From Candidatus Mediterraneibacter intestinipullorum (lineage in GTDB: Bacteria; Bacillota; Clostridia; Lachnospirales; Lachnospiraceae), in NCBI GenBank assembly GCA_019118665.1, contig DWYM01000003.1, forward strand, positions 1 through 39,196: DNA of 39,196 bases, in the 5' to 3' direction. Shown here piece after piece: positions 3,067 to 33,700 of this stretch. A program made the translations under genes and the position numbers. The number at the start of each line of letters is the position of its first letter. Positions within the stretch are counted from its first letter, which is position 1. Under the pieces are notes generated by a model that was not told where the DNA came from, did not search any database, and was given only the letters and a program-made list of their open reading frames with translations.

Positions 3067-3876
3067 TTACGGCAGTGTAAATGCAAGTCTTTTCCCTGTT
3101 TCCGGATGTATAAATTCAAGACGATATGCGCACAGTCGCAGCGGTCCTGAATTTTTTATGTGTGCCGGGGATTCAGTTCTTTTTGCACAGGTCTCCCCGA
3201 AATATGCTGATACTCCTCCGTATTTTTGATCCCCCACAAGCGGACATCCCAGATGTGCCATCTGTACCCGGATCTGATGATGACGTCCGGTATCCAGTCG
3301 GATCTTTACGAGAGAAGTGACAGGCTCAGTATCTTTGTATATCTCATCCACCCGGTAATGGAGCCGAGCCAGTTTTGAGCCGGGCGTGTCTTTTGCGCAC
3401 ACGCGTGAAGTGTTGGTGCGCGCGTCCTTTACCAGATAATCTTCCAGTGTGCCCTCAGACGGATCTGGTATCCCGGTGACGAGGGCGCGGTAATATTTCC
3501 CGAAACTATGGGATGTAAGCTGTCGGTTCAGTTCTTTTGCGGCTTTTGGGGTTTTCGCGAAGACGAGAAGTCCTTCCACAGGCTGATCGAGGCGGTGGAT
3601 GACTGCAAGATAGGGTTCTCGGCTGTGCCGGATCGTCTTCTGTCCATCCTGCCGGCCATAGGGTCGGGTGTCTGGGGAATAAGGTTCCTGCATATCAAAG
3701 AGGTAGTTTTTGAGAAGGCTCACCATATCCCGCGCGCCGATCCTGGAGGTCTGTACCGCGATGCCTGCGGGCTTGCGGCAGACAATGATATGGGTGTCTT
3801 CATATATAATGAAAGTTTGGATATCTGGTTTCATGCGGCTCCTTTTCTCAGGGGTGTCCTGCTTTTTTAATTTCAT
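3067..3876 (-). CDS. RluA-family 23S rRNA/tRNA pseudouridine synthase
   Basis: It converts specific uridines in structured RNA to pseudouridine; which RNA cannot be told from sequence. The catalytic signature reads HRLDQPVEGLLVFAKT around residues 93-108, where the Asp after Arg-Leu is the catalytic residue. The usual motif is HRLDRxTSG, so the Gln-Pro-Val-Glu variant is slightly unusual. An early YEDTHIIVCRKPAGIAVQ segment and a late LDTGRHHQIRVQMAHLGCPLVGDQKYG segment are classic for the family. No S4 domain is seen at the N-terminus. Two starts are possible: 3876 (AAGGA with 8-nt spacing) and 3834 (AAGGAG with a short 4-nt spacing). The shorter form still contains the whole domain. It is convergent with spoVG and divergent from the XpaC-family gene. 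Confidence 0.9.
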   Translation of the reverse strand: MKLKKQDTPEKRSRMKPDIQTFIIYEDTHIIVCRKPAGIAVQTSRIGARDMVSLLKNYLFDMQEPYSPDTRPYGRQDGQKTIRHSREPYLAVIHRLDQPVEGLLVFAKTPKAAKELNRQLTSHSFGKYYRALVTGIPDPSEGTLEDYLVKDARTNTSRVCAKDTPGSKLARLHYRVDEIYKDTEPVTSLVKIRLDTGRHHQIRVQMAHLGCPLVGDQKYGGVSAYFGETCAKRTESPAHIKNSGPLRLCAYRLEFIHPETGKRLAFTLP

Positions 3877-18275: not shown

Positions 18276-19589
18276 ATGAAAAAGTATAGAGCGCTGGTTC
18301 CTGTGGTGATGATCGTATTGATGGCGGCTTCGTGGTATTTGCTGACATCAGACGCTGTTGCCATGGAAAAGGAATACAATACTTATCTGAGCGAAGCGCG
18401 TAAATATGCGGAAGATGGGATTACCAAGTACGCGATTGAAAATTATAACCTTGCCATCGGGCTTAAAAGTACTCCTGAGATATATGCCGAGGTGGCGCAG
18501 TATTATCAGTCACAGGGACGAGACAAAGAATACTTGTCATGGTCTAAAAATTTCTTTGAAACATATCCCACAGAACCTGAGGCTTATGACTGTATTCTCG
18601 GGGCGTATATGGATAACAAGGATTATGAGTCCTGCTATGATATTATTGAAACGGCGGACAAGAGAAATATTTCGACTGACTTTATCAGTGAAGTCCGGGA
18701 AGAAATCATGTATGTGTTTACCATGGATTTTAACTCCTATGACAATGTGGGGATATATAGTAATAATTATTGTGCTGTCAGCAATGACGAGCGGTGGGGA
18801 TACGTAGACCGGTACGGAAAGATCCGCGTGGCGGACACATATGTCCAGGCAGGAGCATTTACTCAGTCGGGATTCGCGCCTGTGGTAAATGAGGAGGGAG
18901 ATACTTACTTTATAGATAAAGAGGGATACAGAGTGCTTGTACCGGAGGAAAAGTACATAAGTCTTGGCATTATAGCGGATGAGAAGATTGCGGCTCTTAG
19001 ACCGGATGAAAAATATACATATCTTGATACGGATCTGAATGTCCTTTTCGGTGAATATGATTTTGCTTCCACTGCCAATAATGGCATTGCCGCAGTAAAA
19101 GAGAGCGATGCATGGAAGCTGATCGATTCAGAGGGAGAGGAGATCGCAGATACTGCCTATACAGATATAAAACTGGATGAAAAAGGAATTGCCTACAGGA
19201 ACGACAGAGTATTTGCGGCTCGTTCAGAGGGAGAATATGTTATGCTTGATGGAAAAGGACAACAGGTGGGGTCAATGACTTTTGAGGATGCCAGAGTGTT
19301 TGCCGGAGACGGCCCGGCAGCGGTAAAGATCGAGGGACAGTGGAGTTTTATAGGTAAAGACGGGAAATTAATTTCCGACAAAAAATATGACGATGCCCGT
19401 TCTTTCATGAACGGTCTGGCGGCAGTCTGCATAGACGGGAAATGGGGATTTGTCGACACGGACGAGAATATAGTCATTGAGCCGCAGTTTTCCGGGGCAA
19501 AGGACTTCAATGAGAAGGGAAGCTGCTTTGTAGGTGTAGGAAATAAATGGCAGCTTCTCAAACTGTATCGGCTCAACAGGGAGGAATGA
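18276..19589 (+). CDS. Membrane-anchored WG-repeat protein with TPR-like N-terminus
   Basis: This 437-residue protein begins with one signal anchor (LVPVVMIVLMAASWYLLTS). A helical TPR-like part follows (residues 30-140: ARKYAEDGITKYAIENYNLAIGL and the next pairs). From about residue 165 there are WG-type repeats: RWGYVDRYGKI, QWSFIGKDGKL and KWGFVDTDENIVIEPQF are the clearest, with weaker copies between. WG repeats form small beta modules thought to bind ligands or wall material. The protein is predicted to face outward. Its stop codon overlaps the AGGGAGG/ATG region of the FHA gene, so translation is coupled. Its role in the pilus is unknown. Confidence 0.8.
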   Translation: MKKYRALVPVVMIVLMAASWYLLTSDAVAMEKEYNTYLSEARKYAEDGITKYAIENYNLAIGLKSTPEIYAEVAQYYQSQGRDKEYLSWSKNFFETYPTEPEAYDCILGAYMDNKDYESCYDIIETADKRNISTDFISEVREEIMYVFTMDFNSYDNVGIYSNNYCAVSNDERWGYVDRYGKIRVADTYVQAGAFTQSGFAPVVNEEGDTYFIDKEGYRVLVPEEKYISLGIIADEKIAALRPDEKYTYLDTDLNVLFGEYDFASTANNGIAAVKESDAWKLIDSEGEEIADTAYTDIKLDEKGIAYRNDRVFAARSEGEYVMLDGKGQQVGSMTFEDARVFAGDGPAAVKIEGQWSFIGKDGKLISDKKYDDARSFMNGLAAVCIDGKWGFVDTDENIVIEPQFSGAKDFNEKGSCFVGVGNKWQLLKLYRLNREE

Positions 19590-19591
19590 GG

Positions 19592-21361
19592 ATGAGAGAG
19601 TTTACATATGAAACCCAGGGAACAAATACATATCTTGTTTATACATTGACGCCGGGGGAAATAGCAGACAGTATGAGCCTGGGGATGCTGACCAACAATA
19701 AGATACCGGGACTGGCATCTGCACTGTTCACACAGATGGATGAGGAAAAATACATAAAGTACAATGTGTCATCCAAAATTTCGGTGAGTCAGTTCTTTTC
19801 AGGCGCAGTCAACAGGAAACGGCTGCTGGGTGTGTTTGGCGGGATTGTCAATGCTCTGATCTCAGCGGAAGATTATATGATAGATACAAATACGATTCTC
19901 CTTGATCTGGATTATATTTTCGCTGACGTGACTACATGTGAGACAGTGCTTATCTGTCTGCCTGTAGAGGGGGCGGCACAGGAGTATGATCTGGGAGCAT
20001 TTTTTAAGGAAATCATGTTTGCTACGCAATTTGATCAGACTGAGAACTGTGACCACGTAGCTAAAATTATCAATTATCTGAACAGCACGCCTGTATTTTC
20101 GTTAAATGATTTTAAAAGAGTTTTGGATGAGATCGCACTGTCCGGACAGTCTCAGACAGGTGGGACCAGTCAGCCGGGGCTGTCTTCTGGTGTGATACAG
20201 GAGGCGCCCGGCCGGGGTGACCCATCCGCGGCCCCGGGACGGTCTAGTCCCAGTCCCTTTGCGGCGTCCGGACAGGCGGAAATACATGGAGCCGGGGGAA
20301 ACTACGGGACGCAGAATCCGGGTCAGCCATCCCCGCAGACTGTGGAGCAGCCCGGCTTGGGGAAAAGTCCGCAATTATCCCAGAATCACGGTGTGCGCTC
20401 CCCGGGAGCGGCAGCAGCTTATCCTGGGATGAATATGCCCCATAGTCAGCCTGTGCAGCCAGTGACGCCCCAGAGCGCGCGAGGCCCTGCAGGAACAGCC
20501 GGCGCAAGTGAGGAGAAGAAAATCAGCATGCTGGGGCTATTGATGCATTACAGCAAAGAGAATAAAGAACTCTATAAAGCTCAGAGAGCGGAGAAAAAAA
20601 ATATGCAGGTCGCCTCAAAACCGGCAAAAAAAGAAAAAAAGAAGAAGAAAGAAATCACATACCAAAGTGAGGTTTATACAGCCGGTCCCGACTTTGCTAT
20701 TCCCGGGCAGACACCACCAGCCACAGGCGGGGGTATGCCCATGGGAGCTCAAAACGCTGGCTTGATGTCCGCTTCTGCGAAAAAAGAGAGCCGAAAGAAA
20801 AAGAACAAGAAAGAGACACAGCCCCCCCAGCCGGCAGCACAGCAAGCCGCGTCGCCCCAGGTGCCATACTCAACGGCGCAGCCATCTTATCAAGGAGTGA
20901 CGACGCAGCCCGTGCAGCCGGGCCCTGCATCCCAGTCTCCTTATCCGGCCGCGCAGCCACCTTATCAGGGGGCGCAGATGAACTTCGGAGAGACCACGGT
21001 TCTCGGCGGGGGAGGGATCGGAGAGACCACAGTACTCAATGAGGGGCAGAATCCGGCGCAGACAGCCGCGCCCCATTTGATCCGGGTGAAGAATAATGAG
21101 AGAATTCCGCTGAACAAGGCCGTATTCCGCATTGGTAAGGAAAGAAGCTTTGTGGACTATTTTATTGGAGACAATACGGCAGTAAGCCGCAGTCACGCGA
21201 ATTTTATTACCCGGGACGGCGAATATTTCGTGGTAGATACGAACTCCACGAACCATACTTTTGTAAATGGGCAGATGATCCAGAGCAACAGCGAAGTGAA
21301 AATCTCTCCTGGAGATACGATCAGGCTGGGCAATGAGGATTTTGAGTTTAAGATATATTAA
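19592..21361 (+). CDS. DUF6382-like protein with C-terminal FHA domain and tandem phosphosite motifs
   Basis: This 589-residue protein has no membrane segment, so it should be cytoplasmic. Residues 1-180 form a globular domain resembling DUF6382 (MREFTYETQGTNTYLVYTL). A long low-complexity linker rich in Pro, Gln, Gly and Ala follows (about 185-465), including a Lys-rich patch. GETTVL then occurs twice, at 466-471 and 477-482. An FHA domain fills 496-589 with the expected phosphothreonine-binding residues: Arg in RIGKE, SRSHA and NSTNHTFVNG. FHA domains bind phosphothreonine, and kinase and phosphatases are encoded just downstream. The arrangement recalls GarA/OdhI, where an ETTSV-type motif next to the FHA domain is phosphorylated and bound in cis. 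AGGGAGG with 7-nt spacing selects the ATG at 19592. Confidence 0.88.
   Translation: MREFTYETQGTNTYLVYTLTPGEIADSMSLGMLTNNKIPGLASALFTQMDEEKYIKYNVSSKISVSQFFSGAVNRKRLLGVFGGIVNALISAEDYMIDTNTILLDLDYIFADVTTCETVLICLPVEGAAQEYDLGAFFKEIMFATQFDQTENCDHVAKIINYLNSTPVFSLNDFKRVLDEIALSGQSQTGGTSQPGLSSGVIQEAPGRGDPSAAPGRSSPSPFAASGQAEIHGAGGNYGTQNPGQPSPQTVEQPGLGKSPQLSQNHGVRSPGAAAAYPGMNMPHSQPVQPVTPQSARGPAGTAGASEEKKISMLGLLMHYSKENKELYKAQRAEKKNMQVASKPAKKEKKKKKEITYQSEVYTAGPDFAIPGQTPPATGGGMPMGAQNAGLMSASAKKESRKKKNKKETQPPQPAAQQAASPQVPYSTAQPSYQGVTTQPVQPGPASQSPYPAAQPPYQGAQMNFGETTVLGGGGIGETTVLNEGQNPAQTAAPHLIRVKNNERIPLNKAVFRIGKERSFVDYFIGDNTAVSRSHANFITRDGEYFVVDTNSTNHTFVNGQMIQSNSEVKISPGDTIRLGNEDFEFKIY
20987..21037 (+). repeat. 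Tandem GETTVL motif before the FHA domain
   Basis: Two identical hexapeptides Gly-Glu-Thr-Thr-Val-Leu are encoded at 20987-21004 and 21020-21037, separated by a short Gly-rich spacer. Codons differ at two positions (ACG/ACA, GTT/GTA), both synonymous. They are candidate kinase targets and FHA ligands. Confidence 0.8.
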
Positions 21362-21375
21362 AAGGGGGATGGAGC

Positions 21376-22308
21376 GTGGATTTCTTAGTTTCGGCTGCAA
21401 CTGACATCGGTCTGACGAAAACAGTCAACCAGGACAGCTACGATGTTCGCGTTTACAGGACTGGTATGGGGAAAGTAGTGTTCGCCGTCATATGCGATGG
21501 CATGGGTGGTCTTTCCGGCGGAGAGATCGCCAGTGCTTCCGTTGTATGCGCATTTTGCAGATGGGCGGATATGAGGCTGCCGCTTCTGTGCGGGAGTGGA
21601 ATCAGGGATGACACCGTCCGGTCTGGCTGGATGGATATAGTAAGCAGCTGCAATGAGAACATAAAGACTTATGCAGGGATGTATGGGACGCGCATGGGAA
21701 CGACAGTTACGGCGCTTCTTATCACGCCGGTGCGATATTACATATTGAATGTAGGGGACACCAGGGTGTATGAGATCGGGGACAGAGTCAGAAAACTGAC
21801 CCGGGATCAGACCGTGACTGCCAGAGAGATAGAATTGGGCAACATGACAGAGGCGGAGGCAGAGAGGGATTCAAGAAGAAGCGTTCTGCTCCAGTGTGTA
21901 GGAGCTTCCAGGGAAGTATATCCCGATATGTTCTTTGGAGATACGAAAGACAATGCAGTATATATGCTGTGCAGTGACGGATTCCGCCATGAAATTACCG
22001 AGGAGGAGATACAGCGTTATCTCAATCCCGGCGTGATGACAGACCCCGGAGGAATGGGGCGGAATATGGAACATTTGATCAGCCTGAACAAACAAAGGGG
22101 AGAGCGCGATAATATCTCGGCTGTCTCAATCCGGACCTTTGATGGGGAAGGGACAGAGCAGAGGTGTGTGAGTGCGGAAACAGAGAGGCTCTATCCACAG
22201 TATGGAGAGTCTGCTCCGACCGACCGCCTGTATCCGGAATGGGAGCCGTTACAATTTGCGTTAGAAGCAGAACTGGCATTTGCTGAAAGTTCAAAGATCA
22301 TAAAATAG
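21376..22308 (+). CDS. PP2C-family Ser/Thr phosphatase with a repeated C-terminal tail
   Basis: This metal-dependent protein phosphatase has all core motifs: Asp10 and NQD at 18-20, CDGMGG at 40-45, GTTVTALLI, LNVGDTRVYEI, LTRDQTV, LCSDGFRHEI and ERDNISAV. It begins with GTG (21376), supported by GGGGG with 7-nt spacing and by alignment with the second copy. After the catalytic domain (about residue 255) there is a tail of roughly 55 residues that the second PP2C (24285-25070) lacks. It holds two 13-residue repeats with the core T-[ED]-R-L-Y-P. It most likely removes phosphates placed by the kinase encoded at 25083. No membrane segment is seen, so it is cytoplasmic. Confidence 0.93.
   Translation: MDFLVSAATDIGLTKTVNQDSYDVRVYRTGMGKVVFAVICDGMGGLSGGEIASASVVCAFCRWADMRLPLLCGSGIRDDTVRSGWMDIVSSCNENIKTYAGMYGTRMGTTVTALLITPVRYYILNVGDTRVYEIGDRVRKLTRDQTVTAREIELGNMTEAEAERDSRRSVLLQCVGASREVYPDMFFGDTKDNAVYMLCSDGFRHEITEEEIQRYLNPGVMTDPGGMGRNMEHLISLNKQRGERDNISAVSIRTFDGEGTEQRCVSAETERLYPQYGESAPTDRLYPEWEPLQFALEAELAFAESSKIIK
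22171..22248 (+). repeat. 13-residue tandem repeat in the PP2C tail
   Basis: Units at 22171-22209 and 22210-22248 encode SAETERLYPQYGE and SAPTDRLYPEWEP. The T-x-R-L-Y-P core is kept while flanks vary, which suggests the core matters. Thr at residues 269 and 282 each have Leu at +3. Confidence 0.75.
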
Positions 22309-22326
22309 AAAATAAGGAGAGAGAAG

Positions 22327-24231
22327 ATGAAAAGAAGAGGATTTAGAAAATTTGGCGCGGCTCTGACCGCGGCGGCAGCAGCGGCGGCTCTGATGCCGGT
22401 CATGCCGCAGGGAACAACGACGGTATATGCCGCTCAGCCGGATGTGACACAGTTTGCCACAAAGGAGCAGTTGATGACATCCTTTGATACGGATGATACG
22501 GATGGCGAGGCTAATGGGAAGAAGATTTACTTCGGATGGAATGATCTGTGGGGCGAGCCTCAGAGCTGGTGGATCGTGGGACAGGACCCGGCGGATACGG
22601 AGGGGAATGGGCTGGTGCTGTTTTCATCTACACCCCTGATTCATGATCAAAAATTTGATTCCGAGACAGATCAGTTCCAGGATATACCATATGACCCGGC
22701 ATGGGGAGCAGTCTACGACGTCGCGCCTGATGCTGTCAGAGCAAGCCATTATGGAGCCAGTGAAGTGCGGCTTAATGTGTTAAAGCCATTGGAGACAAAT
22801 TTAGATTATTTTTCTTCGTCAGAGCAGCGGATGATGGTGGATACAGAGATCGCGACCGATGATTTTCTAAATGGAAACAATTATGTTCTGACTGACAAGT
22901 TGTATCTGCCATATGGTGAACTTACAACGAATTTTATTCTGGCAGGAAGTAATTCAAAAGCAGACTTGGTAAGCGGATTACATGTGGACACTCCGTATTG
23001 GGGGAGTGTTTTCTGGTTGAGAACACCACATGCAGGCACTTATGTAGGAATGGCTGCGAACAATGATATAGTAGGGGATACTCGAGTGGATCTCCTTCAT
23101 AATGTTCACCCCGCACTTCAGGTAGACCTCTCCACCGTCGCTTTTGCCTCCTCCGCGCCGTCGGCTTCAACTCTTGAGACAGCGGAGTCGGGCAGCCTGA
23201 CGATTGACAAAGATAATACCTTCACCCTGCGCCACACCGGCGGAGAAGGTTCAGCGGTTATTGACCCGACAGGGACATTTGTTGAGGTGAGCGGCGCTCC
23301 CGCTGATGCATATCTTGTAGTGCAGAACAGTGAGGGAGCATGGGCGACGGCTGTAAACTCCCAGGACCGGGTTCAGATCAGTGAGGTCACCATAGCAGGC
23401 GCATCCCTTACCTCGTTTGGTGGCTGCAGAGTCTGGCTGGAAAGTACGGATGCAGACCGGATCACGACAGCGGTAATGGCTGAGAGCAGATCGGACTTTT
23501 CTGTATCAGTCACTGGGGGAAACCATATGACAAAGACAGCGGATTCCGGAGCAGAGACTCAGACAGTCCCTGCAGGAAGGGCCATGACGCCTGTTGTGTA
23601 CACTGCCGATGAAGGCTATCACTTCCCGGCGGACTATGTGAACACATTGGCAAGGCAGACGGGAGTTACCGTTGTAAGGGACAGCGATACGCAGATCACA
23701 GTGAGCGGGACGCCGGCAGGGGATGTATCCCTGATGCTGCCCGATGCTCAGGCAGAGACGGTCATGCCGACTTATACGATCACGACAGACATCACGACAC
23801 TGGATTTTGCTGCTGTCAGTGAAGGATATGGGACAAGCCCGGCGGCAGGACAGGTGACAGTTACCAACACCGGGAACAGCGCAGTGAACCTGGTGCAGCC
23901 GGTGGGCACAAATTTCAATATCGGAGCGCTGTCCGCTGTCAGCCTTGCGCCGGGAGGAACAGCAACATTTACAGTACAGCCGAAGACAGGGCTCGCGGCA
24001 GGTGCCTATAACGAGATGATAACGATCGCGACGGATCAGGGGACGAGTGTCCAGGTAAACGCGAGGTTTACCGTAAATGCGGCAGTTGCCGCACCGGTGA
24101 CAGAGCCGGCGCCGTCAGGAGCAGCGCAGACCGGAGACAATAGTTCTTACTCACCGTACGTGTTTATGCTGGCGGTAAGTCTGGCGGCAGCGGGAATAGC
24201 AGGCAGGAGACTGTACAGACAGAACAGATAA
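22327..24231 (+). CDS. Secreted, probably wall-anchored surface protein
   Basis: This 634-residue protein has an Ala-rich signal peptide ending near VYAAQ (about residue 36). Residues 40-280 form a domain with WWIVGQD, EVRLNVL and VFWLRTP stretches that resembles DUF6273-type regions of clostridial surface proteins. A middle region follows, and then a beta-sandwich near residues 480-590 of the choice-of-anchor-D type (VTVTNTGNSAVNLVQPVG). The C-terminus has AAQTGD, a membrane helix (YVFMLAVSLAAAGIAG) and the basic tail RRLYRQNR. That is the shape of a sortase signal, with AAQTG in place of LPxTG. Its gene sits between two PP2C genes of the same ancestry. It may be a pilus-associated adhesin; this is inference. 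Confidence 0.75.
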   Translation: MKRRGFRKFGAALTAAAAAAALMPVMPQGTTTVYAAQPDVTQFATKEQLMTSFDTDDTDGEANGKKIYFGWNDLWGEPQSWWIVGQDPADTEGNGLVLFSSTPLIHDQKFDSETDQFQDIPYDPAWGAVYDVAPDAVRASHYGASEVRLNVLKPLETNLDYFSSSEQRMMVDTEIATDDFLNGNNYVLTDKLYLPYGELTTNFILAGSNSKADLVSGLHVDTPYWGSVFWLRTPHAGTYVGMAANNDIVGDTRVDLLHNVHPALQVDLSTVAFASSAPSASTLETAESGSLTIDKDNTFTLRHTGGEGSAVIDPTGTFVEVSGAPADAYLVVQNSEGAWATAVNSQDRVQISEVTIAGASLTSFGGCRVWLESTDADRITTAVMAESRSDFSVSVTGGNHMTKTADSGAETQTVPAGRAMTPVVYTADEGYHFPADYVNTLARQTGVTVVRDSDTQITVSGTPAGDVSLMLPDAQAETVMPTYTITTDITTLDFAAVSEGYGTSPAAGQVTVTNTGNSAVNLVQPVGTNFNIGALSAVSLAPGGTATFTVQPKTGLAAGAYNEMITIATDQGTSVQVNARFTVNAAVAAPVTEPAPSGAAQTGDNSSYSPYVFMLAVSLAAAGIAGRRLYRQNR

Positions 24232-24284
24232 GGAAAAATAAGAGCATATAGTGGTGCCGATATTTATAATGAAGGTGACTCAGA

Positions 24285-25070
24285 GTGGGATTTTTAAGCG
24301 TTGTACACAGTGACACAGGAATACATAAGGATATGAATCAGGACGCTGTCCTGATTAAAGAGGCTGAAACAGACTACGGGAAGGTAATGCTGGCCGTAGT
24401 CTGCGACGGTATGGGAGGCCTCTCCAGAGGCGAGGTTGCCAGCGCCGCTTTGATCAGGGCTTTTTCAGACTGGTTTGAAACCCGGTTCCCTGACCTGCTT
24501 TATACCCGGCGTACAGAAGAGGGTATCGAACGGAGCAGGCTGGAGCTGGAGCTTGATGGGCTTGTTCAGGATATGAATGGGAAAATACAAGAATACAGCA
24601 GGAAATTTCACGGGAAGATGGGCACTACGGCGGCGCTCCTTTTGATGGCAGAAGGGAATTATTACACAATGAATGTAGGAGACTCAAGGGTGTACAGAAT
24701 TACTTCAGACACTGTCAGCCGGCTTACAACGGATCAGACAGTGGTCCAAAAGGAGATTGAACAGGGCAGGCTGTCCCGGGAAGAAGCGCTTAACCATCCT
24801 CAGAGAAACGTCCTTCTTCAGTGTGTGGGGGCAAGTAAAAACGTTGTTCCGGAATTTACATTTGGAGCATACGCAAAAGGCGAAATATATATGCTCTGTT
24901 CCGATGGCTTCCGGCATCTGCTCACTGAGGAAGAAATGCTGCAGACCATGTCTCCCAGCGTACTTAAGACGGAGAGACAGATGTACGAGGCGGCTGTTTC
25001 TTGTACAGAGTTAAACAAGATGCGTCAGGAGAGAGACAATATTTCTATAATCCTTTTGAAAATATGCTAG
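24285..25070 (+). CDS. PP2C-family Ser/Thr phosphatase, short paralogue
   Basis: This 261-residue phosphatase has the same motifs at the same positions as the copy at 21376: Asp10, NQD 18-20, CDGMGG 40-45, MGTTAALLLM, MNVGDSRVYRI, LTTDQTV, MLCSDGFRHLL and ERDNISII. Many linking stretches match as well (for example NVLLQCVGAS), so the two are clearly duplicates. It ends right after the catalytic core and lacks the repeated tail of the first copy. The GTG start at 24285 has GAAGGTGA upstream and gives the same N-terminal length as its paralogue. It precedes the kinase gene by 12 nt, the usual phosphatase-kinase pairing of PrpC/PrkC systems. Confidence 0.93.
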   Translation: MGFLSVVHSDTGIHKDMNQDAVLIKEAETDYGKVMLAVVCDGMGGLSRGEVASAALIRAFSDWFETRFPDLLYTRRTEEGIERSRLELELDGLVQDMNGKIQEYSRKFHGKMGTTAALLLMAEGNYYTMNVGDSRVYRITSDTVSRLTTDQTVVQKEIEQGRLSREEALNHPQRNVLLQCVGASKNVVPEFTFGAYAKGEIYMLCSDGFRHLLTEEEMLQTMSPSVLKTERQMYEAAVSCTELNKMRQERDNISIILLKIC

Positions 25071-25082
25071 AGGAATGGAACT

Positions 25083-26813
25083 ATGCTGGAAATCGGGTCG
25101 ATTGTAGACGGAAAATATAAAATATTGAATAAGATCGGCCAGGGAGGCATGAGTGTTGTATACCTGGCGATGAATGAGAGAGCCAATAAACAGTGGGCGA
25201 TCAAGGAAGTCCGAAAGGATGGGAGCAGGGATTACGAAGTTGTCAGACAGGGGCTGATCGCGGAGACCGATATCTTAAAAAGGCTGAACCATCCGAATCT
25301 GCCAAGCATTGTGGACGTGATTGACTGCGGGGATTCTTTCCTGATCGTGATGGACTATATTGAGGGAAGACCGCTTGACCACTGGCTGAAAAATGAGGGC
25401 GCACAGCCTCAGGAAAAAGTAGTGGAGTGGGCGAAGCAGATATGTGATGTGCTTGGGTATCTGCATTCCAGAAAACCACCCATTATATACCGGGATTTAA
25501 AGCCTGCCAACGTCATGCTCAGACCGGATGGACAGATCGAGATCATAGACTTTGGAACGGCGAGAGAATTTAAAGAAACCAGCATAGAAGACACGTCCTG
25601 CCTGGGCACTCAGGGATATGCTGCACCGGAACAGTATGGCGGTCATGGACAGACGGACGGGAGAACAGATATTTATACACTTGGAGCCACAATGTATCAT
25701 CTGCTTACCGGGCACAATCCAAGCCTTCCACCCTATGAGATGTATCCCATCCGGCAGTGGAATCCGATGCTTTCATCCGGTCTGGAGCAGATTGTGCTCA
25801 GATGCACTCAGAAAAATCCGGAAGACCGTTACCAGTCTTGCGCGGAGCTGATGTATGCGTTGGAGCATTACACGGAACTGGATGTAGAATACAGGAAGAA
25901 ACAGTCCCGGAAATGGAGGGCATTTCTTGCTTCCTGTATCCTGTCAGTTCTGTCTTTGGGCGGCTGTCTTGGGTTTTATTTTGCAGAGCGCTCTGCTACA
26001 CAGAGCAGCTATGAAAGCCACCTGAGAGCGGCTTCTATGTCCTCAACGGAAGAAGAGATGCTGCAAAATTACCAGAATGCGATCAATCTGTCACCTGAAA
26101 GGCTTGATGCCTATGAGGGACTTTTGACAAATGTTTTTTTGGCGGACGATAATTTCTCTCAGGAGGAAGCTGCCAAAATGACGGAGATCCTGGGATACAG
26201 GGGAGACAGCAACAGGACAAACGAAAGTATCCTGCAGTCAGATAATAGTGCCTATGATTCGTTTTCCTTTCAGATGGGGCTTGCCTATTATTATTACTAT
26301 GAGGACGTGGGAAATAAGCCAATGTCCAGAACATGGTTTCAGACAGCGGCGGACAGCGCCACGCTGGATACCAGTCAGGTGGAACGGGCGAAGAGGCTTG
26401 GAAGAATTGCAGGATATTATACTTCGCTCAACAGCAGCGACCGGGCGGGAGACAGCACAGTTACATATCAGGATTACTGGAATGACCTGACCAGCCTGTC
26501 AGAAGGAAACCTGGTGAAAATGGATAATGTGAAAACAGCGCTTGTCGTATACAAAGAACTTGTGTACCAGATTGGTCAGAATGCCTTGAACTTCAAGTCA
26601 GCAGGGGTCACAGAGAGCGAGCTGACAGAGCGGCTTGAATATACGCGGGCCCGGCTTGAGACGGACATTGAATCAGCAGGGGGCAACCGGGAGGAGACAG
26701 AAGAGCTCAGGGAATCCATTCTTCAGAATATTCAATGGGCTCAAAACGAGGTGGAAGTGGTATTCTCAGCCAGGTCATATGAAGAAGCTGAAGAAGCGGA
26801 ACAGGGGGAATAA
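25083..26813 (+). CDS. Transmembrane Ser/Thr protein kinase (Hanks type)
   Basis: The cytoplasmic kinase domain spans residues about 10-265: Gly-rich loop IGQGGMSVVY, ATP-binding Lys41, catalytic loop YRDLKPANV (Asp138), DFG at 156-158, activation segment with TSCLGTQGYAAPEQ, and the later DIYTLG. All catalytic residues are intact; Tyr replaces His of the usual HRD. One membrane helix (about 279-300) leads to an outer region of about 275 residues with TPR-like helices (LQNYQNAINLSPERLDAYEGL) instead of the PASTA domains of PrkC. It therefore probably senses something other than muropeptides. Natural partners are the two PP2C phosphatases and the FHA protein upstream. The ATG follows GAGGA at good spacing. 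Confidence 0.93.
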   Translation: MLEIGSIVDGKYKILNKIGQGGMSVVYLAMNERANKQWAIKEVRKDGSRDYEVVRQGLIAETDILKRLNHPNLPSIVDVIDCGDSFLIVMDYIEGRPLDHWLKNEGAQPQEKVVEWAKQICDVLGYLHSRKPPIIYRDLKPANVMLRPDGQIEIIDFGTAREFKETSIEDTSCLGTQGYAAPEQYGGHGQTDGRTDIYTLGATMYHLLTGHNPSLPPYEMYPIRQWNPMLSSGLEQIVLRCTQKNPEDRYQSCAELMYALEHYTELDVEYRKKQSRKWRAFLASCILSVLSLGGCLGFYFAERSATQSSYESHLRAASMSSTEEEMLQNYQNAINLSPERLDAYEGLLTNVFLADDNFSQEEAAKMTEILGYRGDSNRTNESILQSDNSAYDSFSFQMGLAYYYYYEDVGNKPMSRTWFQTAADSATLDTSQVERAKRLGRIAGYYTSLNSSDRAGDSTVTYQDYWNDLTSLSEGNLVKMDNVKTALVVYKELVYQIGQNALNFKSAGVTESELTERLEYTRARLETDIESAGGNREETEELRESILQNIQWAQNEVEVVFSARSYEEAEEAEQGE

Positions 26814-26815
26814 AA

Positions 26816-27259
26816 ATGCGGGAAGCGGAACAGTTGATCGCTGTGTATCATATGGGCTTTCTTGTCTGCCTGTGCCTGACAGTGGCTTTTAGTCTGTTAA
26901 GTACTGTGCTTTTCTTCCGGTTCAGGATCAGATGGGTGTTTGGATATATTACCGGACGGGCGGAAAAACGCAGTGTAAAACTGCTGAAAGATAAAAGCGC
27001 CATGTCCGTGAGATTAAAGGATGAAAAGGTGCCTGTTCGGATGATTCCAAACGAGGGCGCACAGCAGCGTGTTGTGGAGGAACACAGTCCGGTTACGGAA
27101 TTGCTGTCACCGGAGGAACACAGTCCGGTCACGGAGCTTCTGTCACCGGAACAGCCAGGCGATGCTCGGGATGTGGCCGGCATTGACGCGCATCAGCGGA
27201 CAGGCAGGTTCATCATTGTAAAAGAGCAGATATGGGTTCACACGGATGAAAGGATATAG
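26816..27259 (+). CDS. Small single-pass membrane protein with tandem TELLSP motifs
   Basis: This 147-residue protein has one membrane helix (MGFLVCLCLTVAFSLLSTVLFF, about 13-34). The basic stretch RFRIRWVFGYITGRAEKR follows, which puts the C-terminus in the cytoplasm by the positive-inside rule. Residues 88-111 are two identical 12-residue units, EEHSPVTELLSP. Each has Thr followed by Leu at +3, like the GETTVL motifs of the FHA protein. The end, GRFIIVKEQIWVHTDERI, looks like a conserved short beta segment. I do not know a named family. It is 3 nt after the kinase gene and is a good candidate kinase substrate and membrane anchor for the FHA protein. Confidence 0.75.
   Translation: MREAEQLIAVYHMGFLVCLCLTVAFSLLSTVLFFRFRIRWVFGYITGRAEKRSVKLLKDKSAMSVRLKDEKVPVRMIPNEGAQQRVVEEHSPVTELLSPEEHSPVTELLSPEQPGDARDVAGIDAHQRTGRFIIVKEQIWVHTDERI
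27077..27148 (+). repeat. 36-bp tandem repeat, synonymous differences only
   Basis: Units at 27077-27112 and 27113-27148 differ at four bases (GTT/GTC, GAA/GAG, TTG/CTT), and none changes an amino acid. Both encode EEHSPVTELLSP. Confidence 0.92.
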
Positions 27260-27290
27260 AGGAATAAGCAACAGAAGGGATGAGGAGAGG

Positions 27291-27713
27291 ATGAAACAGA
27301 GATTTTTACTTGCGGCTGCAGCTTTTTTCCTGTCGGCTGCATCAGTCTGGTTTGTCCCGGCGGCGTTTGATGAGAACGGGAGCATGAACGGACTTGCCTA
27401 CGCGGCGGGGGCGTTGTTCTGGGTCGGTCTTTTAGGGGGGACGGCGGTCTATGTGCTTAGTTTTCGTAAGAAATACAAAAGACCGAATGTGCTGAAATTC
27501 TTCAGCAATGGGGCAGCCTTGGTGTCAGATGGGGTTTTGCTCATATCGGCAGGCGTGACGGGGTATGCGGCATATGCCGGGAATGTGGAAAGAACTGTCA
27601 TATTGGGAGCAATATTTTTCCTGCTGCTAAGCCTGTATTTTCACTTTCTTTTAAACGGACAAGTTTTTACAGATATTGTGGGGAAGAGAAAAGGGAAAGG
27701 AAACCGTACATGA
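27291..27713 (+). CDS. Small integral membrane protein
   Basis: This 140-residue protein has about four membrane helices (FLLAAAAFFLSAASVWFV, LAYAAGALFWVGLLGGTAVYVL, a segment near VSDGVLLISAGVTGYAAYA, and ILGAIFFLLLSLYFHFLL). It has a short loop KKYKRPNVLKFFSNGAA and a basic C-terminus (GKRKGKGNRT). No family is recognised. The start at 27291 has GAGGAGAGG directly upstream; the longer open frame from 27246 would add a polar segment before the first helix. The stop overlaps the giant gene's start (ATGATG), so translation is coupled. It may assist export or anchoring of the giant protein. Confidence 0.72.
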   Translation: MKQRFLLAAAAFFLSAASVWFVPAAFDENGSMNGLAYAAGALFWVGLLGGTAVYVLSFRKKYKRPNVLKFFSNGAALVSDGVLLISAGVTGYAAYAGNVERTVILGAIFFLLLSLYFHFLLNGQVFTDIVGKRKGKGNRT

Positions 27714-30700
27714 TGAAAAAAGTGAGAGTGCGCGAGAAAATATGTGCGATTATGATGGCAGTTTTAATGCTTCTGTCAAGTGTGCTGCCATCGGTGCCGG
27801 CTATGGCTCAGGTGACTGCTCCTCATAAGGATATCGCCGGGAACACGGTGTATCTCTTTGTGTATGAGACATATACTGATGAGCAGGGACAGATTCAGAA
27901 GATTCCGGTAAGTGGCGTCAGGGTGAGAGGGCAATTTTATTTGTCTGATGGCACAGAAGTGCCGGAGGAGGTATCAGGTCAGACGGATGTCAATGGCATG
28001 GTTTCTGTAAACTGTTCTGCCGGCACGCTGGATTCGGACGCAAAATTTAAGTATCAGGTGGAGAAGACAGGATACAGTACCAGGGAGAATATAGAGCTTG
28101 CCGCCTCTGACTTTGGAACTGAACAGATGCCTGCCCAGTGCGCTGTGACAATGTCGGATATTGAACTGGGCTGGCAGGAAAAGGAAGAAGGTCAGGACCT
28201 GAATGTAGTAGCCGGTGGATCTCCAGTTATACTTGAGATCTTAAATACAATTGCGGATGAAAACATTCCCGATGAGGCTTATGTATGGGAATGTGAAAAC
28301 CCGGAGCTCATCACAATCTCTGATGTACAGGATACTCCGGCAGATCAGTCAGGGACACCGGATCAGATAACTGTGAAAAAAGCAATTACCGGTGTGAAAA
28401 GCGGGGAGACACGGATAAAGGTGTACCGGTACGGAAAAGAAGCGTATGTCAATGTGAAAGTAGAGGAATCCCTGTCGGACAACGAAAGTCAGACAGGGGA
28501 TGACAAAGATTCCGGGGAAGTGGAAACACCCGGTTCTGATGATGAGCCGGCGGATAAGGCGGAGGTTGAAATCACTATAAAAGGGGCTTCTGAGATTACT
28601 TATGGGGATCCGGCTCCGGAGATAACTGTACAGGAGAATACTGATACAGGGAGAGAGATCTCTTATTCGATAGAAACACTCGAATCAGCGTCGGGGGACG
28701 TGGCAAGTATTGACTCTGCTACCGGGGTAATAACGGTTACAGGAGCAGGAAAAGTAAAAATTACGGCAACGGCACATGAAAATGAGGTCTATGCGTCCGC
28801 CAGTGACACACATGAACTTGTAATATATAAAAAGTCGATTACAATCGGGCGCGATCAAGCGGAAAAATTTGTATGGAGCACAGGTCAATATGGGGCTGTA
28901 AAGGTGTATGACGGCGATGCCGGATTTGAGATACAGGGTACGTTAAGCGGAAGTGAAGATGGGATTGTAGGTAATGATCAGATCACCCTCTCTGTGACCG
29001 CGGATGTGGCAAGCTCTGATGAGAAAAAATCGGGGGATGCCGGGGTGTATAATGGTGTGAAGATCAGCAGTGTTTTATCATCCGAGAACATGGAGGAAGA
29101 AAATCCCAATTACCAAATTACGATTGGGAAAGATTTTGCTGACACTTCAATCCTGCCCGACACCACCTTTGAGATAAAAAAACGCCCTCTTTATGTAGAA
29201 CCTGCCGATGACATTACATTTCAGTACGGACAGGATGTGAATGTGGCTCTTCAGGAGTCTGGAGAGGTTAAGCTGGCAGGAGAAAACGGCAGTATTGACG
29301 ATTCCCAGGATCAGGGACTTATAGAAGGGGAGGCACTGCCGGAGTATGTGAAAGATTATGTGGACTTTGTTTTTGCAGGGGAATATGCAAGTCCGTCGGA
29401 TGCTCCGCAGTATGTAGGGAGTTATCCCAATGCTGTAATGCTTAAGCGAAATGAGACAGAGTGTCCGGGAAACTATGAGATCTGTGTGGATGAGTCGGTC
29501 CCCGCTCTGGTGGATCTGAAAATTACCGCCCAGAAGATCAGCGATGATGAATTGTGGGAGGCTCTGGAGATTGACGAGGAGAATAGCTGCAGCTACTCTG
29601 CTGACAGTGAGGATACCATATGGGTGAGCGCGGCAGGGGGAAAACTGGCCTTCAAGATAAAAGAGGAGAGCGAACTCAGCCAGTTGTATGATGAGGTCTG
29701 GCTGAAGACAGGAGACGGCAGCTTTAACACTTATCTTGAGCATTCCGCTGATTCTGAGAGTGCAGTCATAGAGAGTGAGATCAGTGTCTATTTAGGCTGC
29801 AGCAGGGATGAAGATGATTCCCCTACCCGGACTGCAAGCTCGGATGGAGAGGGATATAACAAGATTCCGGCAGGAGAGATCAAATTTGACAACAATGCAC
29901 CTTCCATAGTATTTACCGGAGAAGATCACATCCCATATAAGATATATAAAGAGGGACTGTTTCAGTTTGGGGATTTCTCTTATTTTACCAACAAGGCATA
30001 TCATGAATCTGTAACTATTACAGATGGAGAGAGCGGTCTGGCAGACCAGCAATATCATTTGCTGCAAGTCCAGAAAGGCGAGAATGTAACAAAAGCCATC
30101 ACACAGGCTGTTAATGGCTTTAATGAGTGGGACAAGCTGGAGTTGTCCGGTAAAGGAGAAGCGGTCATATCTGTACCTGAAACAAAAGAAGGGGGCTATT
30201 ATGTAATCCTGGTGCGGGCAGAGGACCGGATGGGAAATCATGTAGTGTATGCCTCAAACGGACTGGTGATCGAGCAGACGGAACCACCTGTAGTCACATT
30301 TAATGTCGATCCTCCAGATGGTGAAAACAATTGGTATAAATCAGATGAGATTGATTATGTCCTTACAGTAAAAGATTTTAATGATCCACATTCAGAAATA
30401 TATTCAGGAATTAAAGAGGTGGAAGTCACAGTAAGGGTGTATGGTACGGACCCTGAAATATATGAAGAACTGGAATCTGGCGGTGTTGAAGATGGAATAT
30501 ACGTTAATTCTTTTAAACTGACAAAGGAACAAATCGACGACATTGCGATACCGCAGCATGATGGGAACGGGTATACGTTTGATGACCTGAAAAATAAAAG
30601 CGGGCTTTCTATTAAGGGGAAAATTCGTATTCCCGGTACCAGCCGGAATACGGTGGAAATCACTGCCAGGGTTATCGATGAGGCGGGAAATGGAAGTCAG

Positions 30701-33700
30701 GCTTGCAAGGCGTTGATGGTGGATAATGTTCCTCCTGAAATGTTATGGGAATGGGAAAGTGAGGATGAGGACGGCATCTATCAAACAAGGACAGCAATAG
30801 TTACTTTTATAGAGCAGAAGTTTAAATCGGAATTAGTTTGGCTGTACATGTATAGAAATCATGGCTTGCAGGAAGTATATACTCTCCAGGACCTGGAAAC
30901 CGGAAAATTGAAAGGTGTTAAGGCTGAGCGAGTATCAGATGATGCAATGGATTCCAACATCAGCCCGGACGATGCGGGGAATAAGACCGTATATCAGATC
31001 ACCTTTGAAAATGAAACGAAGGATGATGTCCATTACAGATTCATTCCGCGTATACAAGATGAAGCTGGTAACTGGTATTATGGCGATGAGCAGAGCTTCA
31101 CCATTGACAATAAGCCTCCTGGCGTTTCGGTTGAATATGACGATGGTGATGAGGACAAAGGGAACTTTCCCACTAACGGTAAATATTTCAAGGCTGAAAG
31201 AACGATGACCCTTACGTTCACAGAAAGGAATTATTCGGAAGAGCTGGCCGGACTTGAACTCGCTGTGGAGGGTGACGTTGATGAAAATGAGGAAGAGCAG
31301 CACAGAATTTCTCTTGCTGAGCTTTTAGATACTCCTTCAAAAGGAACTCAATATGGAATAGCCATTATTAAAGCGGTATCGGACAATACGAGTGAGACGA
31401 ATGAAGAACACAAATACGAGATCACATTCGGAGAAGATGGCAAAGAGTTTGACTATCATGTGGTACCGTATATTATTGATCAGGCTGATAACGAAAACGA
31501 GAGTGTGGAGTATGCAGAAGAGAGCAACCCGGATACACAGGCTGACTTTGCTGTAGACATGAAAGCGCCTGTACTGAATGTATCATATTATATACTGTCG
31601 GATGACGAGGGGATTATGTCGCCGGATGATGAGAACATTACTTCAGAAATTGATGCAAGTGCAGACAACGAAGACAGCAGAGTCTACATGAACAAAAAGA
31701 TTTACGCAAAGATAGAAATTGAGGAGCGAAACTTCAGTTCGAGAGAAGGCGGCTTTGGGGATGGTCAGATGGAGGCAGTGATGGAAGCTGTTGACGCCGC
31801 CGACAATCCTGTAACCGCAGAGTCATCGGAAGACGACGCAGCGGCAGCGCTTAAAGGGCTCATCAATAATCCCGGGGAATGGGATTCATCTCAGGACGGA
31901 GAAAACACTCATGTGCTTTCACTGGAGTTTTCTGCTGACGCGAACTATACGTTTGGGCTGGATTATGAAGATCTGGCAGGGAATCCAATGGTACTGGGCG
32001 AGAATCAGGCGCTTTCCGGCGAAGGCAGCGGGGACTATGGCCTGCGCTATTTTACCGTGGATACTGAGGCCCCGGAAGGAACAATCAGCATAGAGAATGA
32101 AACGGATTTTCAGACAGTGCTTCTAAAGGTGCTGGACATCATTACTTTTGGAGTATTCCATCAGGAAAAAACGAATATCGTATTTTCAAGCGATGATCAG
32201 ACTTCCCCGCATAAACAGTCCTATTACCTGTACGATCCTCAGTCCGAGGGGGAACACCAGCTAACCGAGGAGGAGCTGAAAAAGCGATTCTTAGAAGAGG
32301 GAATTGAATCCGCGGGCTTTTCAGAAGAGGGTCAGGAGCAGACGCACTCTGCTGAGGCGAACACCCAGCAGATTCCGTATCTGCGCGTGGAAGACATGGC
32401 AGGGAATGTAGAATATTATACAGGAGAGGGGCTCGTCGTTGATAACGTGAAGCCGGATATAACGATTGAACTTCTTGATTCCGAAGGCAATGCTGCTGAT
32501 GCCAATATGATTTTTTCCGGCGATGTTCCGTTCAGGATTTTGACAGAGGATCCTCTCGGGGAAGAAACTGGCGCTTATTCAGGCATACAGTGTGTGCAGT
32601 ATGAGATATTCATGGATGGAAACCGCACTGCAAAAGCCGAGTACACAGTCAGCGGTTCAAACAAAGGGGCGGATTTCCGTCAACAAAGTGTGCTCTGGGA
32701 TAAGAATGGAGAAGAACCGCTGATGATATCTGCTGGGGATAACAACAGCAACAATGTTGTTATTCGGGTTACCGCAGAGGATAATGCGGGTAATCCTGAA
32801 ACAACTGAGCTTCCTTTAAAGATTGATACAACCCCTCCTGAAATAAGTGTTGAATATGACAACCATGACGTCCGCAATGGCAGGTATTTTAAAGACGACC
32901 GGGTGATGACAGTCACATACAAAGAGCGCAACTTCGATGAAGCAGGACTTACTTTTGACATCTTAGGGGAAGACGGGACATGGGAAGAGGGAGTGACTCT
33001 TCCTGAGTTAAAAGAAATGGATGGCTTTGAGTTTGAGGCTGAGTGTGAGGATAATCAGGCGGAAATCCCTGAGGCTGAGCGGACAGATGAGCGTGAGATT
33101 GTGTATCGGATTCGTTTTTCAGGAGGTGAGTCAGGAGATAAAGATTATGGCATCCGTCTGCATGCCAGAGATATGGCGGATAATTCAGATGAAGGCGTGA
33201 ATTATGATGAAGAGCAGGCATCTGAAGAATTTACTGTTGACAAAGTACGCCCTCAGCTGAAAGTTGTGTATAAGGCTGGAGAGCAGGAGATAACGCCGGG
33301 TCTGAAAGAAGAAGACACTTATTATGAGAGAGAAGAAGAGATCACGGTCGTTGTGAGTATCAGCGAGCGTAACTTCTGTCAGGAAGATGAGTTTGCTCCA
33401 GAGCAGATCCAACTGGACCTTACGGCAACGGACGCCGCGGGGAAAGATGTGCTGTCTGATGTGGTAAGCGCATATAAAGATGCCGTTTTGGATACAGACA
33501 GGTGGAAACATGCGGTCAGCGCAGAAAGCACGGATACAAAAGAGCAGATATTTACCTTTGGTGAAGATGCGAATTATTCATTCAGCTTTGATTATGAGGA
33601 TCTTGCCGGCAACAGGGCCGTAGAGGCGGGAGAATCGGAAGACTCATCCCCAGACGAGCCGGAATCCATGGTTCATAAGTGCAGGTACTTTACCGTAGAC

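Follow-up and report, generated by a model that had tools for sequence, protein, structure and literature searches.

A conserved T-x-[VL]-L array of variable length on a predicted membrane protein encoded beside a Ser/Thr kinase and, mostly, an FHA protein in Lachnospiraceae

Why should otherwise unrelated proteins encoded around one Ser/Thr kinase gene carry the same short threonine motif in pairs? The question is raised by a 39,196-nucleotide stretch of DNA from Candidatus Mediterraneibacter intestinipullorum (contig DWYM01000003.1), analysed here as a whole and called the window. An earlier note on it had seen paired T-x-x-L motifs in an FHA-domain protein, a PP2C phosphatase and a small membrane protein (MEM hereafter), and had proposed a shared kinase-target and FHA-docking code that links the three into one complex. 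Following the motif through homologous loci, we find a conserved array of T-x-[VL]-L motifs, variable in length, on a dedicated membrane protein (by predicted topology), mostly encoded beside an FHA protein in which two copies are usual. The proposed code stands in kind for the FHA protein and MEM, where the motif is conserved, and lacks support for the PP2C tail. The features concerned are listed below; Tse names refer to a type VII secretion system (T7SS) subtype, T7SSe, and pLDDT is the predicted local distance difference test score of AlphaFold.

19547..21361, + strand: DUF6382-FHA protein, TseJ-like, the presumed phosphothreonine reader (Pfam DUF6382 E 2.1e-21, FHA E 2.9e-14)
20987..21004, + strand: first GETTVL copy, Thr483, in the FHA linker (linker blocks have a mean pLDDT of 45-49)
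21020..21037, + strand: second GETTVL copy, Thr494, in the FHA linker; two synonymous codon differences from the first, no residue change
21128..21331, + strand: FHA domain; Ser-Arg-x-His and Ser-Thr-Asn kept, Lys replacing the Arg of Gly-Arg
21376..22308, + strand: extra PP2C phosphatase with a C-terminal tail (Pfam PP2C_2 E 7.7e-08)
22180-22197 and 22219-22236, + strand: TERLYP (Thr269) and TDRLYP (Thr282), both in the PP2C tail and of doubtful membership in the motif set
24285..25070, + strand: canonical PP2C of the operon, TseF-like, without a tail (Pfam PP2C_2 E 2.3e-09)
25083..26813, + strand: membrane Ser/Thr kinase, TseD-like (Pfam Pkinase E 2.8e-48), with one transmembrane segment by eye and an extracytoplasmic part
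26816..27259, + strand: MEM, single-pass membrane protein, probably TseK-like, with a predicted cytoplasmic tail
27092-27112 and 27128-27148, + strand: VTELLSP twice (Thr94, Thr106) in the MEM tail; an 11-codon repeat with three synonymous and no residue-changing differences

All six copies lie between 20987 and 27148, two each in the FHA protein, the first PP2C and MEM. That each protein has exactly two is right for the tails; the whole proteins hold four (FHA), three (PP2C) and two (MEM) T-x-x-L. The description of all three as cytoplasmic does not fit MEM, which has one predicted transmembrane segment (about residues 15-33) ahead of its predicted cytoplasmic tail. The FHA linker residues, numbered 466-482 in that note, agree with a later start codon, Thr483 and Thr494 being counted from the listed open reading frame; the true start is probably an in-frame ATG at 19586 or 19592, since 19547 overlaps the preceding gene. 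Both GETTVL copies precede the Pfam FHA match, which begins at residue 528, by 45 and 34 residues. Taken singly, the pairs are only mildly unusual: in 20,000 shuffles per tail, at least two T-x-x-L arose with a frequency of 0.028 in the FHA linker (75 aa), 0.034 in the PP2C tail and 0.014 in the MEM tail. The case therefore rests on relatives, and across homologous loci the motif is strongly non-random in the MEM tails and FHA linkers, support that does not extend to the PP2C.

The Thr three residues before Leu is the kept Thr in ETTVL, TELL, TDVL and TVLL alike. We built a profile from 168 training sites, excluding the window and scoring the training sites on their own profile; of these sites, 133 have Val, Leu or Ile at +2 and 91 have Glu at -1. 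It was applied to 24 window genes, leaving out the minus-strand gene at 3067-3876 and the cut gene at the window end. The FHA sites score 13.0 and 8.5 and the MEM sites 4.9 each, set against a training median of 7.0 and, for 200 background sites, a median of -6.8 and a 95th percentile of 0.15. The sole other high site among the 24 proteins is in the C-terminal part of the kinase (4.0).

The operon recurs across the family. DUF6382 matches occur in 145 of 150 genomes, each of another genus of the family. Within the window's genus MEM was detected in 6 of 40 other genomes, and a seven-member profile detected it in 25 of the 149 other genomes of the family search. Profile searches over 141 sources (the window, L044-L143 and L171-L210) placed MEM in 32 loci, the window included. 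The kinase gene lies immediately 5' of MEM in all 32, a PP2C gene lies 5' of the kinase in 30 (exceptions L185 and L195), and an FHA protein is encoded 5' of the PP2C in 23. Of the 23 loci that have both genes, 20 carry T-x-x-L in the FHA linker as well as in the MEM tail, the exceptions being L175 (none in MEM) and L181 and L190 (none in the linker). Co-occurrence in homologous loci, the check named in the earlier note, is thus found for the FHA protein and MEM and not for the PP2C. In L175 (3613-4941, minus strand), the kinase domain is fused in-frame to a MEM-like transmembrane segment and a tail without a clear T-x-x-L array, a fusion that may be natural or an assembly artefact.

For MEM itself, neither Pfam nor NCBIfam gave a family match at E up to 0.1. 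Lys and Arg are commoner in the 15 residues after its transmembrane segment than in those before it in 30 of 32 proteins, a charge asymmetry that predicts a cytoplasmic tail. Counting the tails without the 15 residues after the transmembrane segment and the last 12 residues, we found T-x-x-L in 29 of 32 MEMs, 133 in total and up to 12 in one protein (none in 3 tails, one in 2, two in 4, three in 6, four in 7 and 5-12 in 10); some counted sites, such as TPEL and TGNL, are poor matches. The arrays take different forms, with SEETTLLNSG-type repeats in L089 (genome G184), TDVL/TDIL arrays in L176, L178 and L181, and ETTVL, TELL and others elsewhere.

The spacing is specific. For the spacing test near-identical sequences were merged (32 MEM tails to 31, 23 linked linkers to 22, 33 kinases to 31 and 31 PP2Cs to 29), all 97 unlinked linkers and 120 DUF6382 domains were kept, and MEM tails were taken whole, including juxtamembrane TGKL-type and C-terminal TNEL-type sites. 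Leu stands three residues after Thr 148 times in the MEM tails, where 27.9 are expected (z 24, a score that kinship overstates, see below). This is their most enriched Thr-Leu spacing; +2 is also raised (62, 27.8 expected), while +1, +4 and +5 show no excess or a deficit, and Ser-to-Leu at +3 is found 30 times for 22.3 expected. No +3 excess appeared in the controls, namely kinase C-terminal parts (38, 47.3 expected), PP2Cs (24, 39.5 expected) and DUF6382 (75, 76.7 expected).

In 18 of 19 MEM tails with repeated cores (exception L184), the cores are spelled in at least two codon versions; L176, for example, has seven TDVL in seven spellings and L172 four TTVL in four. The spacers between motifs vary in both length and sequence. 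We reject DNA slippage as the source of the repeats, given cores that keep the same residues in different codons, and chance as the source of the FHA and MEM motifs, given the spacing counts, copy counts and codon divergence.

The FHA linkers carry the same motif next to the presumed phosphothreonine-reading domain. Two copies precede the FHA domain in 18 of 23 linkers, one in three (L176, L178, L188) and none in two (L181, L190); TSKL (L176), TTQL (L178) and TGNL (L194) are poor matches. In the 22 merged kinase-linked linkers, Thr-Leu at +3 occurs 37 times where 6.6 are expected. The Ser, Arg, His and Asn of the phosphothreonine site are conserved in all 23 FHA domains. That of the window is homologous by sequence to the FHA domains of DgcB, Rad53, GarA, OdhI, EmbR and Rv1747. 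An AlphaFold model of its linker and FHA part, whose input alignment left out three cut open reading frames and one near-duplicate and thus comprised 19 of the 23 linked sequences, has 90 of 132 residues at pLDDT of at least 90, and its top PDB matches include the FHA domains of EmbR, FhaA, DgcB and GarA. Furthermore, across 12 groups FHA linkers and MEM tails agree in the choice of Val or Leu at +2 (r 0.60, permutation p 0.035), in a test that ignores the tree, counts the genus as one group, covers 12 of 14 groups since L175 and L193 have no usable letter, and omits L176, L178, L181 and L190, whose linkers lack Val or Leu at +2.

The conserved, repeated motifs suggest sites marked by the kinase and read by the FHA domain, and a phosphothreonine module of this kind is the explanation that we regard as probable: the kinase would write T-x-[VLI]-L, the FHA protein would read it, the MEM array would gather the FHA protein and PP2C would reset the system. 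Starting from gene order, motif conservation, the phosphothreonine-site residues of the FHA domain and predicted topology, all read from sequence, we infer phosphorylation, the choice of threonine, binding, complex formation and output as follows. The membrane kinase (25083-26813) would phosphorylate the Thr of T-x-[VLI]-L in the disordered FHA linker and in the MEM tail, and the FHA domain would bind phosphothreonine with Leu at +3. Phosphorylated MEM could then capture several FHA proteins at the membrane, and the linker copies would permit self-binding, as in GarA and OdhI, or FHA-FHA linking. PP2C would strip the phosphates and reset the switch. The output would probably be control of the assembly or activity of a neighbouring pilus or secretion machine.

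Several observations weigh against this module. MEM tails have no copies in L175, L185 and L195. Four of the 23 linkers (L176, L178, L181, L190) lack a convincing copy while the corresponding MEM tails retain theirs, and L188 and L194 have one convincing linker copy each. In the kinase-linked linkers, Thr-Leu at +2 (50, 7.1 expected) exceeds +3, owing to the T-T-x-L / L-L form. The z-scores overstate significance, as common descent alone gives values of up to 7.6 in folded controls at other spacings or residues (Ser to Leu at +4 in DUF6382). In the domain itself, the Arg of Gly-Arg is replaced by Lys in 21 of 23 proteins and by Ser in one, with Arg kept in one; Lys here is a conservative departure from the classical phosphothreonine site. 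AlphaFold left the linker (pLDDT 45-49) undocked on the FHA domain, in a model to which phosphate is invisible. In the comparison of +2 residues, the window and L171 go against the agreement. Lastly, no FHA open reading frame was detected in 9 of the 32 MEM loci, some of which are short stretches; in L174, L177, L179, L182 and L186 several kb upstream of the PP2C are present and still yielded none, and the reader there may be missing, too divergent to recognise or encoded elsewhere. Because an FHA open reading frame is found in only 23 of 32 MEM loci, we hold the module with slightly lower confidence and give slightly more weight to a switch confined to the FHA protein.

Foremost among the alternatives is the complex in its complete form, in which phosphatase, MEM and FHA protein share one docking code and the PP2C is held by its own tail, a proposal that we find doubtful. 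In its favour, the T[ED]RLYP repeat looks old and kept, differing at four of six codons synonymously with one conservative residue change, and its Glu/Asp at +1 and Leu at +3 match the MEM motifs. Position +2 is Arg, as against Val, Leu or Ile in most training sites, and the scores of 0.7 and 0.2 lie near the 95th percentile of background and at the 15th-16th percentile of training sites, far from the training median. Among 31 PP2Cs the tail is present in the window's first PP2C only, the other 30 including the window's second PP2C; six further PP2Cs of the genus also lack it. One other copy is known, in G164, a very close genome, where the protein is 99% identical to the window's and too similar to count as conservation. 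With a tail in 1 of 31 PP2Cs and poor profile scores, a code shared by three proteins as originally stated fails at the PP2C, whose tail is possibly a lineage-specific recruit acting as a third participant.

The surroundings of the extra PP2C deserve separate mention. In G164 (L231:1-10091), a 2.4-kb stretch with the C-terminal part of the FHA protein and the first PP2C is 95% identical in DNA to the window, and the FHA N-terminus and upstream gene order differ; this mosaic may reflect recombination or misassembly. Between the window's two PP2C genes (22327-24231) lies a gene for a 634-aa protein with a signal peptide and a C-terminal transmembrane segment by eye. Its start is also found 3' of the first PP2C in G164, and the protein may have arrived together with the extra PP2C.

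An unlikely alternative is a GarA-type self-switch only, in which the linker, once phosphorylated, binds the FHA domain of its own molecule, and MEM, although phosphorylated too, serves another reader, for example a T7SS ATPase with an FHA domain or a distantly encoded FHA protein. It draws on FHA proteins with no MEM or kinase in the stretch: their 97 linkers hold 94 Thr-Leu pairs at +3 (35.4 expected), and 73 of 93 (97 minus four whose FHA domain begins before residue 150) have at least one T-x-x-L in the 40 residues immediately before the FHA domain, as against 10 of 93 for a control segment lying 100 residues earlier. The published descriptions of DgcB, GarA and OdhI provide a precedent, the nine MEM loci without a detected FHA open reading frame fit it, and L254 encodes an EssC-type ATPase whose FHA match is just above the Pfam cut-off (22.0 bits, cut-off 20.7). 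Against it, the MEM arrays share the linker motif and keep it in the Tad-linked window, L183, L192 and L193, whose stretches yielded no EssC-type gene.

Very improbable, finally, is simple tandem-repeat turnover in disordered tails with no binding role, which could draw on copy numbers of 0 to 12 among relatives and on the 1 to 3 percent of shuffles that give two copies in single window tails, but which does not fit cores kept as residues while codons diverge, spacers that differ in length and sequence, the specificity for Thr over Ser and for +3 in MEM, or the constant position of this motif ahead of the FHA domain.

Which machine would the phosphothreonine module serve? The earlier note spoke of a Tad locus, which probably suits the window and falls short as the full story, since the same module adjoins T7SS genes in other genomes. 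The genes upstream of the module in the window we take, from their translations, to be TadZ, TadA, TadB, TadC and TadE/G-like; Pfam identified a WG-repeat protein there and, of the Tad components, the prepilin peptidase alone. Searching with the window's Tad proteins and with T7SS queries from L254 and L189, we found only four loci with three or more Tad markers next to the kinase module, namely the window, L183, L192 and L193, where Tad-type genes precede the module. L191 has two (TadG, WG), and L188 and L194 have only a TadZ-like gene, which alone need not mean Tad because a ParA/TadZ-like protein adjoins YukD in L254. In L189 the module set lies beside an FtsK-type ATPase, YukD and two WXG100 matches, and in G184 the genes for YukD and for an EssC-type ATPase, the latter with an FHA match, lie about 13 kb downstream of MEM. 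With the L254 and L189 queries, no TseC-type ATPase, YukD, WXG100 or TseB gene was found in the 39-kb window, which we therefore do not classify as T7SSe; another contig of the same genome (G000, C102; L250, L252) carries an EssC-like ATPase and one WXG100 match, the latter within a 307-aa open frame. What the window shares with T7SSe loci is the module rather than the T7SS. Among 96 loci with an FHA protein and no MEM, these queries detected at least three Tad genes in 15 and EssC in none; with only 15 of 96, these are not called Tad loci.

More tentatively, and as a possibility rather than an expectation, MEM may be a membrane-anchored, length-tunable multivalent phosphothreonine scaffold (0-12 sites in the 32 tails), phosphorylated by the operon kinase, that concentrates FHA proteins in clusters or condensates at the envelope and thereby activates the machine beside it, with the module as an exchangeable controller of a Tad pilus or T7SS. 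If so, two unrelated machines would have one controller module in common. The phosphothreonine module, if real, would be a multivalent FHA-phosphothreonine switch spread over separate proteins, its repeat number tuned by evolution. It would also extend control by threonine phosphorylation to loci beside Tad genes in gut Lachnospiraceae.

Further features and observations concern the neighbours of MEM, the kinase and the FHA proteins. Downstream of MEM, the operon continues with two genes:

27246..27713, + strand: 155-aa hydrophobic protein of the same operon, multiple transmembrane segments by eye; homologues in 10 of 31 other MEM loci
27710..36139, + strand: 2809-aa envelope protein, TseI-like, with a signal peptide and a C-terminal transmembrane segment by eye; homologues in 9 of 31 other MEM loci

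No Pfam or NCBIfam family scores above cut-off for the 155-aa protein. The kinase translation contains RDLKPAN and DFG, which we take to be kinase motifs. The 23 FHA proteins of MEM loci vary at the N-terminus, with 10 DUF6382, 9 other, 3 cut at a contig edge and one short open reading frame (L181). In L084-L089, of the same genus (e.g. L085:8847-10526, plus strand), a signal peptide, an outer part and a transmembrane segment take the place of DUF6382 in the FHA protein; despite this, two GETTLL precede its FHA domain. The sole other PF00498 match in the window's genome assembly (L002, G000, C74) is a protein of 189 aa that has a hydrophobic segment near its N-terminus and lacks T-x-x-L ahead of the FHA domain.

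How does the module compare with known systems? The closest is T7SSe, with the DUF6382-FHA protein TseJ, the phosphatase TseF, the kinase TseD, the single-transmembrane TseK/TseH, whose cytoplasmic stretches are unstructured, and the large immunoglobulin-like TseI (Garrett et al. 2024, PMC11217815). The window protein shows the TseJ hallmark of an N-terminal DUF6382 and a C-terminal FHA domain, and the window also has the PPM phosphatase, the membrane kinase, a predicted single-transmembrane protein and a large envelope protein; the difference is that its set follows genes read as a Tad locus. The topology of MEM (hydropathy, charge) fits the published description of TseK/TseH, and from gene order and topology MEM is probably TseK-like. 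T7SSj is reported to have F, J and K and to lack H (PMC11217815), which makes TseK likelier than TseH. Threonine phosphorylation has been raised as a control of some T7SS subtypes (PMC11217815), and our results turn this general suggestion into named residues and a testable reader-ligand pair. We found no mention of T-x-x-L arrays in the consulted part of that article, and no description of them in these proteins in the titles and abstracts returned by searches of open-licence PMC papers, which is weak evidence of novelty.

GarA and OdhI, with their ETTS switch, and Bdellovibrio DgcB likewise have a disordered segment with a phosphorylatable Thr before the FHA domain, in an E-T-T context (PMC8546545, PMC6733907). 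The self-peptides bound by DgcB, GarA and OdhI are hydrophobic at +2 and +3, with +3 of DgcB pointing into the FHA cleft (PMC6733907). At 33.9 bits against a cut-off of 200, the NCBIfam OdhI equivalog model does not support orthology, so that GarA and OdhI serve as a works-like comparison only. Here, by contrast, the linker usually has two copies and a separate membrane protein carries an array.

PppA of the type VI secretion system (T6SS) is a PP2C-type phosphatase. In Agrobacterium, PpkA phosphorylates TssL, Fha binds its phosphothreonine and TagF-PppA opposes (PMC3953482), again a kinase, a phosphothreonine-bearing membrane protein and an FHA reader within a secretion system. That case involves one site on the structural protein TssL of a Gram-negative T6SS, whereas here there is an array. 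M. tuberculosis Rv1747 combines FHA domains with a disordered linker; when its cognate kinase PknF phosphorylates it, condensates are promoted, which the phosphatase PstP reverses, and nanoclusters occur in the membrane (review PMC9312465). FHA and linker are there joined in one ABC transporter, whereas in the loci described here the reader and the array are separate proteins.

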